A model generated the notes under the pieces. It was not told the origin of the DNA, made no database searches, and saw only the letters and a list, made by a program, of their open reading frames with translations. A stretch of 64,000 bases of DNA. Source: Celeribacter baekdonensis (lineage in GTDB: Bacteria; Pseudomonadota; Alphaproteobacteria; Rhodobacterales; Rhodobacteraceae). The stretch lies in NCBI RefSeq assembly GCF_900102315.1, contig NZ_FNBL01000006.1, positions 1-64,000 of the forward strand. Reading direction: 5' to 3'. A program made the position numbers and the translations under genes. Below, in pieces: positions 10,367-14,588 of this stretch (position 1 is the stretch's first letter; each line of letters opens with the position of its first letter).

Positions 10367-10885
10367 TTATGAGCGATGGCTGCGCAGGAACAATCCAAAT
10401 CCGACCAGACCCGCGCCATTCACCAAAAGCTCAATGCCAAGCAAGATGCCCAAAAGCGACAGCGACACGGCGGCAAAATTGGCAAAGATATAGCCAGCCA
10501 GCAGGACGGTCACGGCACCGGACAAGAGCATGGCCCAAAAGAACCGCGTCTGCCGCATTTGCCATGACATCACCAACCGGATCACACCGGAGGCCAAAAG
10601 AAAGGCCATGACCACCATGGTCAGGGACAGGGTGCCCTCAACCGGATTGGCGATAAAACTCACCCCGATCATCAAGCTGATCAACCCCCAAAGCAGGCTA
10701 AAGATACGGTGCCCTCCAGCCTCTGCGGAAAATCCGGCCCAAAGTTGCGCCGCACCTGTGATGGCGAACAGCGTGCCGAGAAGAATCGTGATGGCCAGCG
10801 AGGCGATCACCGCATTGCCCAGCGCCAAGACGCCAAAGAGAAAGGCCAAGGCACCAAGGCCGACCCAAGTTTTCCAGTTGATCAT
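10367..10885 (-). CDS. HdeD-family membrane protein (DUF308)
   Basis: 172 residues, six predicted transmembrane helices in three pairs, matching the DUF308/HdeD layout (acid-resistance membrane protein in E. coli). Helices include WVGLGALAFLFGVLALG, ITILLGTLFAITGAAQL and LSLLGILLGIELLVNG. The ATG at 10885 follows GGAGGGCGCT; an ATG four codons earlier is not supported by a ribosome-binding site. A role in acid or envelope stress is known for the E. coli member and only inferred here. Single gene, convergent with the EF-hand gene. Confidence 0.8.
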   Translation of the reverse strand: MINWKTWVGLGALAFLFGVLALGNAVIASLAITILLGTLFAITGAAQLWAGFSAEAGGHRIFSLLWGLISLMIGVSFIANPVEGTLSLTMVVMAFLLASGVIRLVMSWQMRQTRFFWAMLLSGAVTVLLAGYIFANFAAVSLSLLGILLGIELLVNGAGLVGFGLFLRSHRS

Positions 10886-10942
10886 AGCGCCCTCCATGGG
10901 ATTGGGGATTTTAGACAAGATATAAACACTCAGGGCCAAATT

Positions 10943-11001: not shown

Positions 11002-11607
11002 TTAGACCCAAGGACGTTCCTGTGCCATTTTGGCTTCATAGGCGTCGATATCTTTGACATTCGCCATGGTCAGGCCGATGTCATCGAGCCCTTCCAGCAA
11101 GCAATGCTTTTTGAACGCATCGACTTCAAACGGGAACTCTTGGCCGTCCGAAGTGGTCACGGTCTGAGCCTCAAGATCAACGGTCATACGTGCGTTTGCA
11201 CCCTTTTCGGCATCGGACATCAACACATCCACAACCTCTTGTGGCATCACAATGGGAAGGATGCCGTTTTTGAAAGAGTTGTTGTAAAAAATGTCGGCGA
11301 AAGAGGTCGAGATGATGCATTTGATGCCAAAATCCGCCAAGGCCCAAGGCGCGTGTTCGCGTGAAGAGCCACAGCCAAAGTTGTCACCGGCAACGATGAC
11401 CTGAGCCTCACGATATTGCGGTTTGTTGAGCACGAAATCGGGGATTTCGTTGCGGTCGTCATCATAGCGCATCTCATCGAACAGGTTCACACCCAGACCA
11501 GAGCGTTTGATCGTTTTGAGAAAGTTTTTGGGAATGATCATATCGGTGTCGATATTCACAAGCGGCATGGGTGCCGCGATACCCGTGATCTTTTCAAATT
11601 TTTCCAT
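11002..11607 (-). CDS. leuD: 3-isopropylmalate dehydratase small subunit
   Basis: 201 residues, the usual length. With LeuC it isomerises 2-isopropylmalate to 3-isopropylmalate. Signatures: [16 protein letters not shown] near the N-terminus, [17 protein letters not shown] (swivel-domain substrate loop) and [14 protein letters not shown] at 11607 has AAAGG ten bases upstream; a GTG two codons earlier is too close to that site. The gene begins 14 bases after the stop of the two-domain esterase, which sits between it and leuC in the same operon. Confidence 0.97.
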
Positions 11608-11621
11608 GTCCACGAATCCTT

Positions 11622-13160
11622 TCAGGTCGTTTCACGCGCGGACAATGTCTCGCGCAATTTTTTGAGTTTCCATTTGGGGCCACCGACCTCAAGGCAACGG
11701 TCAATGGCATAAAGGGCAAGACCCGGGCGGCGCTCGGCGCTTTTGTTGGCCAGGGTCAGCCAATAGACTTTGCTGTCACGCCGCCGGTCGCGGGCGGCTT
11801 TGCGGATGTCATTCACGGGCGGGCCGTCTTCAAACAGACCTTCGAACAGAAGGGGCAGGGATTTGCTGTCCAAAAGCCGCTGCGCCACCTGATGCGAGGC
11901 CAGCGGAATTTTGATCAGGGACCACGTCTCATCGGTGTCAAACAGGGCAATCTGATTTCGGTCAGCATTGAGCGGATCATAGAACACAAGCTTTTGCGCC
12001 GTCGGCGACACGTGGTCCTCCATCCGATGCACAAACCCGTTGATCCGCTTTGCCGCTTTGCTCCACCGTTTTTCCCAAGGCACAATCGCCCGGTCGATGG
12101 AATATTGCGGAGCCACGGCCAGAACCCGATCCGCGCCCAAAGCCCCGGACAGCAAAAGCCCGCCATAAGCGCCCATTGAGGCCCCGTAGGCGACGAGTTT
12201 GGTCTCTTTCGGGACAAAGGCCCGGATCGCCCTGGCCATTTCAAAGACCTCATCGTCCTGAAACCAATTGGACATCCGCGCGCGGACATAGACCACAGCC
12301 GTGCCGCGTTTGCGAAAGAACCTTTGGCCAAAGCCCGGTTCAGCAAAGCCATCGTCAGCCACCGCATGAGGTAATGAGATCACGACACCATTCGGCGTCA
12401 GGGTCTCGCCCTCATACCATGCGTGATACTGGCCGCTGGTCCAAAGCCACTGGCGGATCAACACGCTGTCCTCAAAAGAAGACAGCGCATCGGCAAAGCG
12501 TTGCCCCAGTGCCGCAAGCCCGGAGGCCATCAGATGAATGCCGTCAGGACGATGCGCGAGGTCGCGGGTTTCCACCGTTTTGAACGCCGTTACGTCGGCA
12601 GAGGCTATGGCGTCGCGCACCAGATCAACGTGATCGCCCGGAGCCGTGATCAGCCCCGCCACAACCGGCAAATCGGGCACACCGAGGTCTTGTCGCAACC
12701 GGGCGACAAAACCTTCGAACCGTGCGCCGTAAGCCTGTGCATCCTCAAGATCCAAGGCATCGCTTTCGCCCTGCATCCAAAGTAAGCCCCGCAACCGCAT
12801 TGGCCCTGTGGCCATTGCGGCGCGCGCCTCGGCCACCAAACGCTGGTAGAGCGGACCACCACGCCCCTCGGCGGACCAGCCGCGGGACAGGTAAGACCCG
12901 CCTTTGGCCAGTTTGACGATGGACAGGGGGCGTCCGGTCTGGACTTGCCACTGACGTGCAAAGCTCAGTTCAGGGCCAAACCCCCGTTTCTGATAGCCCG
13001 CATCAACGCCGAGCGGCACCCAAGCCCCATCGGCCCAAATGCGCGCACCCTCGATCAGACCCCGCTCTGTTTCAGCGAGATCATCCACACCAACCTTGTG
13101 GCCAGCCATGTTGCTTTGGCCAGCCATCAGGATCAGATCAGAGGGTGTGTTTTGCACCAT
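11622..13160 (-). CDS. Two-domain SGNH/SASA esterase plus alpha/beta-hydrolase fusion
   Basis: 512 residues. The N-terminal half (about 8-225) looks like the SASA/sialate-O-acetylesterase family (CE6-like). It has AGQSNMAG with the putative nucleophile S16, [10 protein letters not shown], and RPDGIHL with D206/H209 completing the triad. The C-terminal half (about 240-400) has an alpha/beta-hydrolase nucleophile elbow GASMGAYGG (S328) and a probable acid/His region further on. No signal peptide is visible, so it is probably cytoplasmic. It sits 18 bases after leuC and 14 before leuD, so it is in the leucine operon. Link to leucine synthesis is unknown; deacylation of a small ester or of a surface polysaccharide precursor is speculation. 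Confidence 0.75.
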
Positions 13161-13178
13161 ACCCGTGGCCCAAGCTGC

Positions 13179-14588
13179 TTAGAGCATCTCGCGCACGTCG
13201 GTCAGATGACCGGTGAGCGCCGCCGCCGCTGCCATGGCCGGGGACATCAGGTGGGTGCGTCCGCCGCGGCCTTGCCGACCTTCAAAGTTGCGGTTTGAGG
13301 TGGCGGCACAGCGCTCACCCGGCGCAAGCTGATCCGGGTTCATCGCCAAACACATGGAACACCCGGCCAGACGCCATTCAAAGCCCGCGTCGATAAAGAT
13401 GTCGGCCAAGCCCTCCTCTTCGGCTTGCGCGCGCACAAGGCCGGAGCCCGGAACGATCATCGCTCGCATGCCGTCTTTGATCTTTTTGCCTTTGAGGATC
13501 GCGGCGGCTGCACGCAGATCTTCGATCCGGCCGTTGGTGCAGGACCCGATAAACACGGTGTCGATTTTGATGTCGGTCAGTTTCTGACCCGGTTCGATGC
13601 CCATGTAGTCGAGCGCGCGTTTGACCGCGTCAACCTTGCCGCCGGTGAAATCGTCGGGCGAGGGGACAACTGCGGAGATCGGCAACACGTCTTCGGGCGA
13701 GGTGCCCCAGGTCACAACCGGCTGAATGTCTTCGCCTTTCAGCGTCACGACCTTGTCAAAATGGGCGCCTTCGTCGGTGTAGAGGGTTTTCCACCAATTC
13801 AGAGCCGCGTCCCACTGTGCGCCTTTGGGGGCGTGTGGGCGGCCTTTGACATAGTCAAATGTGGTTTCGTCCGGTGCGATCAGGCCCGCGCGCGCGCCGC
13901 CCTCAATCGCCATGTTACAGACGGTCATGCGGCCTTCCATCGACAGATCGCGGATCGCTTCGCCACAATACTCAATCACATAGCCGGTGCCGCCGCCGGT
14001 GCCGGTTTCGCCGATCACCGCCAGAGTGATGTCTTTCGCGGTCACGCCGGGCTTCAACTTGCCGGTGATTTCGACCTTCATGTTTTTGCCCTTGCGCTGG
14101 ATCAGCGTCTGGGTGGCCAGAACATGTTCGACCTCAGAGGTGCCGATGCCATGCGCCAAAGCGCCGAATGCGCCGTGGGTGGCAGTATGGCTGTCGCCGC
14201 AAACCACGGTCATGCCGGGCAGGGTCCAACCCTGTTCCGGGCCAACAATGTGCACGATGCCCTGACGGATGTCAGACACCGGATAGTAATGCACACCGAA
14301 TTCCTTGGCATTGGTGTCGAGCGCCTCAAGTTGGATGCGGCTCTCTTCATTGGCGATGATGCCAGAGACGCGATCCAGTGTGGTCGGCACATTGTGATCC
14401 GGCACGGCGATCGTTTTTTCCGGCGCGCGGACTTTGCGGCCGGTCATGCGCAGACCTTCAAAGGCCTGCGGGGACGTCACTTCGTGAACGAGGTGACGGT
14501 CGATGTACAGCAAACAGGTGCCATCTTCGTCCTCGTGGGTCACGTGGGCGTCCCAGATTTTATCATAGAGTGTCTTCGGGGCGGTCAT
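13179..14588 (-). CDS. leuC: 3-isopropylmalate dehydratase large subunit
   Basis: 469 residues, normal length for the aconitase-like large subunit. It holds the [4Fe-4S] cluster through cysteines in GSCTNGR and in [12 protein letters not shown]. Other signatures are [30 protein letters not shown] and the C-terminal [13 protein letters not shown]. The ATG at 14588 follows GGGAGAGC. First gene of the leuC-esterase-leuD operon, divergent from the mscS gene with about 280 bases between them. Confidence 0.97.

Follow-up and report, generated by a model that had tools for sequence, protein, structure and literature searches.

A gene located between leuC and leuD in the marine bacterium Celeribacter baekdonensis encodes a protein in which a SASA-type esterase domain is joined to a second domain with an alpha/beta-hydrolase fold. 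We propose that this protein is a glycan-modifying enzyme whose C-terminal half (C-half) acetylates and whose N-terminal half (N-half) deacetylates, and that the gene is cargo of the leuC-leuD junction, with leucine not being the signal; we consider this reading about equally likely to be right or wrong. The C-half is probably an O-acyltransferase rather than a second hydrolase, because its nearest folds in the VIA-align comparison are those of Gap2/Asp2 and CsaC, and because it carries a glutamine, Q352, at the spacing found in CsaC, which is kept in almost all relatives.

Organization of the leuC-leuD region

The window, that is, the whole stretch of DNA analyzed, comprises 64,000 nucleotides of contig NZ_FNBL01000006.1. 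The features of the region are as follows.

10367..10939, minus strand: HdeD-like gene next to the end of leuD (score below the cut-off of the HdeD model)
11002..11607, minus strand: leuD, 3-isopropylmalate dehydratase small subunit (TIGR00171, 252.7 bits)
11608..11624, minus strand: fusion/leuD junction, TGA stop followed by AAAGGA, the likely leuD ribosome-binding site (read by eye)
11622..13160, minus strand: fusion gene, 512 aa, SASA-type esterase domain and alpha/beta-hydrolase-fold domain (open reading frame, Pfam, model)
11622..12476, minus strand: C-half, residues 229-512, alpha/beta-hydrolase-fold domain, probable glycan O-acyltransferase (model, VIA-align, alignment)
11892-11894 (H423), 11976-11978 (D395), 12105-12107 (Q352) and 12177-12179 (S328), minus strand: C-half residues (alignment)
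12477..13160, minus strand: N-half, residues 1-228, SASA (PF03629) O-acetylesterase domain (Pfam E 6.1e-49)
12534-12536 (H209), 12543-12545 (D206) and 13113-13115 (S16), minus strand: N-half residues (alignment)
13161..13178, minus strand: leuC/fusion junction, 18 nt, no clear Shine-Dalgarno sequence (read by eye)
13179..14588, minus strand: leuC, 3-isopropylmalate dehydratase large subunit (TIGR00170, 797 bits)

The initial annotation had described, without naming the strand, a 512-residue two-domain reading frame lying between leuC and leuD with operon-like spacing. The frame is present there on the minus strand, and the spacing is indeed tight, with a gap of 18 nt to leuC and of 14 nt to the ATG start of leuD at 11607, or of 8 nt if the possible in-frame GTG upstream, at 11613, is considered. 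The leuD genes of relatives with an empty site start at the same ATG. Both leuC and leuD matched their NCBIfam equivalog-domain models above the cut-off. The 15 insert-free junctions of the genus, read by eye, contain the motif TAAGGAG (14 junctions) or TGAGGAG (one), and in these closed junctions the leuD ribosome-binding site apparently overlaps the leuC stop codon. In the window, the TAAGGAG-type motif is gone after leuC, and it is replaced by the AAAGGA after the fusion stop. The fusion gene is presumably cotranscribed with leuCD.

The neighbors scanned around the fusion gene include HdeD-like, mechanosensitive-channel, leuB, CoA-transferase and similar genes, and no glycosyltransferase gene was found among them. 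The counts obtained in promoter and terminator scans were near the shuffled means. A search for RNA families between 9500 and 16500 gave no match above the gathering score; an RNA leader or attenuator near leuC was rejected as a candidate, and the two sub-threshold matches (E 0.3 and 0.83) were taken as chance. The GC content of the fusion gene (0.602) does not differ from that of leuC (0.609), and its base composition therefore does not point to a recent acquisition from elsewhere. The gene order is the same in C. baekdonensis B30, in which the fusion is 93% and leuC and leuD are 99% identical to those of the window.

The N-half is a SASA-type esterase domain

The SASA domain spans residues 7-226 (167.1 bits against a cut-off of 24.8), and the N-half matches the solved structures 2apj (Z 30.3 over 220 residues), 1zmb (Z 27.1) and NanS 3pt5 (Z 23.1). 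It thus resembles the SASA family (2apj At4g34215, 1zmb, NanS 3pt5, SIAE) over the whole domain, with fold Z scores of 20-30, and it shares with this family the serine (S16) and the DxxH motif (D206, H209), whose catalytic roles we assume from the family. The assignment of the N-half to the SASA esterase family is thereby borne out, and S16, D206, H209 and, in the C-half, S328 are located at the positions that had been claimed for them. In contrast to the SASA family, the window protein is fused to a second alpha/beta domain and has no signal peptide visible by eye, and within the set of fusions catalytic residues are lost or the frame is broken in four of ten copies.

The model of the complete fusion, built from nine sequences of its own locus, has a mean pLDDT of 86.8, and the fold sets in right at the N-terminus, with a strand at residues 7-14. 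The enzyme is probably cytoplasmic. Among phages, four records match the N-half (one of them to residue 285), two of which carry the annotation minor tail protein; proteins with this annotation in the Arthrobacter phages Giantsbane and Bolt007 contain SASA-type domains akin to the N-half.

The C-half has a hydrolase fold with an additional glutamine

A domain search had been proposed to confirm both folds. Pfam gave no match for the C-half of the window protein, and its fold comes from the model. Modelled alone, the C-half adopts an alpha/beta-hydrolase fold with confidence (pLDDT 88.5). Of the earlier description as a second GxSxG hydrolase, the GxSxG motif and the fold therefore stand, whereas the hydrolase function is probably wrong in view of the VIA-align folds and the extra glutamine.

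In the VIA-align comparison of the C-half alone, Gap2/Asp2 (6oyc_B) was first (Z 17.2, rmsd 2.9, 209 aligned residues), followed by four CsaC entries (Z 15.7, 15.6, 15.4 and 15.0) and then by ordinary esterases, beginning with a row at Z 14.3 and many of them at Z 13-14. Rows closer than 1 in Z were regarded as tied, so that the lowest CsaC entry ties with the row at 14.3, which counts against the acyltransferase reading. The same holds for the Foldseek ranking, in which an ordinary hydrolase (2fuk, XC6422) was first, CsaC second and Gap2 twelfth, and which also contained feruloyl esterases and a lipase. At the sequence level, a profile of nine sequences found no CsaC chain among its 11 matches at E <= 10, and a C-half profile of 59 sequences found none among the 60 matches listed, to E 2.3; the latter profile matched Gap2 at E 0.6 and, again counting against an acyltransferase, matched ordinary esterases best. 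The Asp2 profile PF16929 did not match the window C-half at E <= 0.1, and it matched two of the 59 C-domain relatives, with a best E of 0.053.

According to the available text of PMC7501274, CsaC of Neisseria meningitidis serogroup A is a capsule O-acetyltransferase that takes the acetyl group from acetyl-CoA via S114; its active site consists of S114, D198 and H228 with an added glutamine, Q138, and the exchange Q138A abolished 96.8% of the transfer. In that text the authors also state that the glutamine is conserved in uncharacterized proteins, and they raise the question of whether it makes transferases out of esterases. Q138 is located 24 residues after S114, and Q352 is located 24 residues after S328; the two were matched by this spacing and not by superposition of coordinates.

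The +24 position was scored mechanically in 64 of 66 relatives, the other two having no GxSxG in the matched stretch. A glutamine was found at exactly +24 in 58 of the 64, and one position off in three more. L154 and L155 lack it, which counts against the proposal, and L010 was read at the wrong motif. In an alignment of 59 C-domains, S328, Q352 and H423 are present in all sequences and D395 is Asp in 58. This alignment excludes L010, the glutamine-less L154 and L155 and some near-duplicates, and the invariance of Ser, Gln and His is therefore limited to the chosen 59. All four residues are kept in the nine fusion proteins aligned and also in the C-half of the fusion in G296, that is, in ten of ten.

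As a control, 26 Abhydrolase_6 places of the window genome were considered, of which five have no elbow, one (L198) ends before +24 and one (L205) is itself a relative; for L193 and L195 a second candidate elbow was used as the likelier one. None of the 19 non-relative places with a readable elbow has a glutamine at +24, and the only control place that has one is L205.

Some observations on the C-domain relatives can be added. The window genome contains a C-domain paralogue (G000:C13:122202-122651; L002, L205) with a glutamine at +24, in whose frame no SASA domain was seen by eye. Five other relatives (L007, L008, L043, L030 and L016) lie in long frames and are apparently fused, by eye, to sulfotransferase-like, glycosyltransferase-like and other domains.

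The C-half thus resembles CsaC, as described in the available text, in its alpha/beta-hydrolase fold (VIA-align Z 15.0-15.7), the GxSxG serine, the order of Ser, Asp and His and the glutamine at +24. It differs from CsaC in giving no sequence match to it among the profile matches listed and in having no sure counterpart of His201, the partner of the glutamine in CsaC: at the candidate column, 403, 50 of the 59 sequences have His but the window has Gln, a further point against the acyltransferase reading. Extra C-terminal helices and the esterase domain in front are other differences. Owing to the missing sequence match, the C-half was not filed as a member of the CsaC family; by analogy, it probably works like CsaC without belonging to it. 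Asp2, as far as described in the consulted parts of PMC5578698 and PMC7948813, O-acetylates GlcNAc through a Ser-Asp-His triad in accessory Sec systems. The C-half shares with Asp2/Gap2 this triad and its best VIA-align fold, and its family gives the weak sequence echoes mentioned above; the two differ in that identity over the aligned part is 8% and that the leu neighborhood has no export role among the neighbor genes scanned.

The leuC-leuD junction is a cargo site in the family

The initial annotation had assumed that leuC and leuD are usually adjacent. We searched 149 genomes of the family and found leuC in 143 and leuD in 144; the 130 genomes with both genes on one contig and strand were scored, three of the 143 leuC-positive genomes being left unscored and ten more either lacking leuD or having it on a different contig or strand from leuC. 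The gap was 60 bp or less in 41 of the 130 (with an overlap of one base in one case), 61-299 bp in 21, and at least 300 bp in 68, including the window. The assumption therefore fails across the family, but it holds within the genus, where 15 of the 19 scorable genomes (of 20) are closed, with a gap of 11-33 bp; the remaining ones contain the fusion (three genomes) or a different gene (G300).

The 68 loci fetched, from 67 family genomes (one of them, G019, with the fusion) and G300, contain 108 mechanically called ORFs in their gaps, with at least one ORF in 67 loci. These ORFs fall into many unrelated clusters, and the leuC-leuD junction is therefore regarded as a general cargo site. A Pfam scan covered 40 of the 108 ORFs, many of which had no match; the matches found include MFS transporters, group 1 glycosyltransferases, an AAA ATPase and DUF4276 pair, isochorismatase, HupE/UreJ, amidase, DUF429 and more. 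The largest cluster, DUF308, is present at 17 loci (two representatives were scanned). Insertions at leuC-leuD were not found described in the literature searched.

Two of these insertions deserve mention on their own. In 17 other genera (among L068-L121), DUF308 relatives of the window HdeD-like gene occupy the gap between leuC and leuD, and the window gene matches all 17 members of the cluster with 34-53% identity; the HdeD-like/DUF308 gene is a recurrent companion of the leu operon. In two genera (L117:163-1919, L115) this gap contains a pair of AAA_21 ATPase and DUF4276 genes, which may be a defence module.

Occurrence and genomic settings of the fusion

The full-length fusion was found in four of 394 family genomes, including that of the window (E <= 1e-50), in three of 20 genus genomes, and in none of the other 384 genomes sampled from the class (E <= 1e-30), a sample that contains some family members. 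All six fusions from the genome searches (the four of the family, G295 and G296) are located between leuC and leuD. When named genomes were scanned separately, eight full-length relatives were obtained, of which five lie at leuC-leuD and the other three at different loci. Altogether, the fusion is present at leuC-leuD in seven genomes (G000, the window, and G295, G296, G156, G019, G154 and L131) from at least four genera; four of them also have named records, L129, L133, L135 and L136. The proposed check for recurrence of the insertion in relatives thus found it at this locus in six other genomes, and in other genera as well. A recent random insertion was rejected, given that seven genomes share the site and that dN/dS between the window and L129 is 0.11. 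No plasmid-borne copy was found at E <= 1e-20. Some match to the window protein exists in 223 of 295 sampled family genomes, and most of the matches listed concern the C-half only.

The best tree topology places L132 of Roseovarius aestuarii, which is not at leu, among the leu-located copies; branches are long, and a constraint joining the leu-located copies in one clade was not rejected (AU p 0.073). The relatives outside leu are L130, L132 and L134. L130 and L132 directly follow GT2_4/GT92 glycosyltransferase and FkbM-type methyltransferase genes, and in the case of L130 a YjbH exopolysaccharide gene and a gene for an epimerase are also close by. L134 is flanked by scpB and a dCTP deaminase gene with no glycan cluster, which counts against a role in glycan modification. 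The earlier suggestion of an action on a polysaccharide ester gains support from the glycosyltransferase genes that adjoin two of these three relatives. In the window genome, PF13704-type glycosyltransferases are found elsewhere at ten places, nine of them over the cut-off, which says little, since PF13704 also matches in 12 of 14 control genomes. Separately, an eCIS_core-domain protein adjoins the fusion in R. aestuarii (L132:7579-9678).

Selection on the fusion gene

The fusion gene is under purifying selection. Between the window and L129, dN/dS is 0.109 for the whole gene, 0.122 for the N-half and 0.098 for the C-half, and about 0.012 for leuC and leuD. Between the window and G296 it is 0.107 for residues 1-95, 0.153 for residues 104-228 and 0.106 for the C-half; between L129 and G296 it is 0.307 for residues 104-228 and 0.084 for the C-half. 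SASA residues are lost in L129 (D206), L133 (S16) and L135 (S16 and H209), and the SASA half of G296 has a broken frame, which could be a sequencing error. S16, D206 and H209 are all kept in six of ten copies, including that of the window. The four losses in the SASA half are all among the seven leu-located copies and none is among the three located elsewhere, although these numbers are small.

Proposed function and alternative explanations

In the proposed mechanism, an acetyl group, probably from acetyl-CoA, would be taken onto S328, with the H423/D395 charge relay assisting the serine and Q352 positioning the acetyl. The group would then be passed from S328 to a sugar hydroxyl, presumably of a growing surface glycan, and the SASA esterase of the N-half, with S16 and D206/H209, would take O-acetyl groups off this glycan or a related one. 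The gene would be placed at leuC-leuD as a common cargo site of the family and expressed with leuCD, without leucine supply being its signal. More specifically, and only tentatively, one polypeptide may combine an acetyl-CoA-dependent writer with a glutamine-extended triad and a SASA eraser of surface-glycan O-acetyl, the C-domain representing a large alphaproteobacterial family of glycan O-acyltransferases that has no Pfam family of its own, like the glutamine-bearing proteins to which the CsaC paper pointed.

The protein might instead be a double esterase, with both halves being hydrolases that strip different acyl groups from acetylated sugars, either imported or recycled. The SASA half belongs to a clear esterase family with its three residues in place, and both the Foldseek ranking and the best sequence matches of the C-half profile agree with this. 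We nevertheless regard it as doubtful, because no signal peptide is visible by eye, the closest VIA-align folds are those of O-acetyltransferases, the extra glutamine is missing in all 19 ordinary hydrolases of the window genome whose elbow is readable, and two relatives stand in a context of synthesis, beside glycosyltransferases. A gene that merely hitchhikes while its N-half decays, so that mainly the C-half matters and the SASA half is a scaffold or on its way out in several lineages, would account for the lost residues in L129, L133 and L135, the broken frame in G296 and the contrast of 0.31 to 0.08 between L129 and G296; against it, the comparisons of the window with L129 (0.12 to 0.10) and with G296 (0.15 and 0.11 to 0.11) show little contrast between the halves, and six of ten copies keep all three residues. 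This explanation appears unlikely to us.

It was also suggested that leucine status controls the esterase, in the sense that the coupling to leuCD was selected so that branched-chain status sets the level of an esterase or acyltransferase and hence of glycan modification. The tight spacing (18 and 8-14 nt) fits this, as does the leuC-leuD location of all four fusions from the 394 family genomes and of both further ones from the genus. However, the junction hosts many unrelated genes and is open by at least 300 bp in 68 of 130 scorable genomes, three of the relatives from the separate scan are located elsewhere, no RNA family exceeded its gathering score near leuC, and the full-length fusion is missing from 17 of the 20 genus members. 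The suggestion is thus not upheld, and we give it very little credence.

Implications

No fusion of SASA and alpha/beta-hydrolase types was found described in the literature searched. In Klebsiella, according to the available part of PMC11556721, an esterase of the acetylated capsule and a second enzyme bear on capsule acetylation, that is, two enzymes there against one polypeptide here. What is of interest is that a single protein combines the two parts, the leucine link probably being just a favored parking place for genes. The family-wide cargo site at leuC-leuD is a warning against inferring function from an insertion beside metabolic genes. Should the C-domain prove to be an acyltransferase, a function could be given to such proteins, which are matched in most of the sampled family genomes. 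It would also bear on the question raised in the available text of PMC7501274, whether the extra glutamine generally turns hydrolase-fold esterases into transferases, and a writer fused to an eraser would be an architecture not seen before for adjusting the acetylation of glycans.
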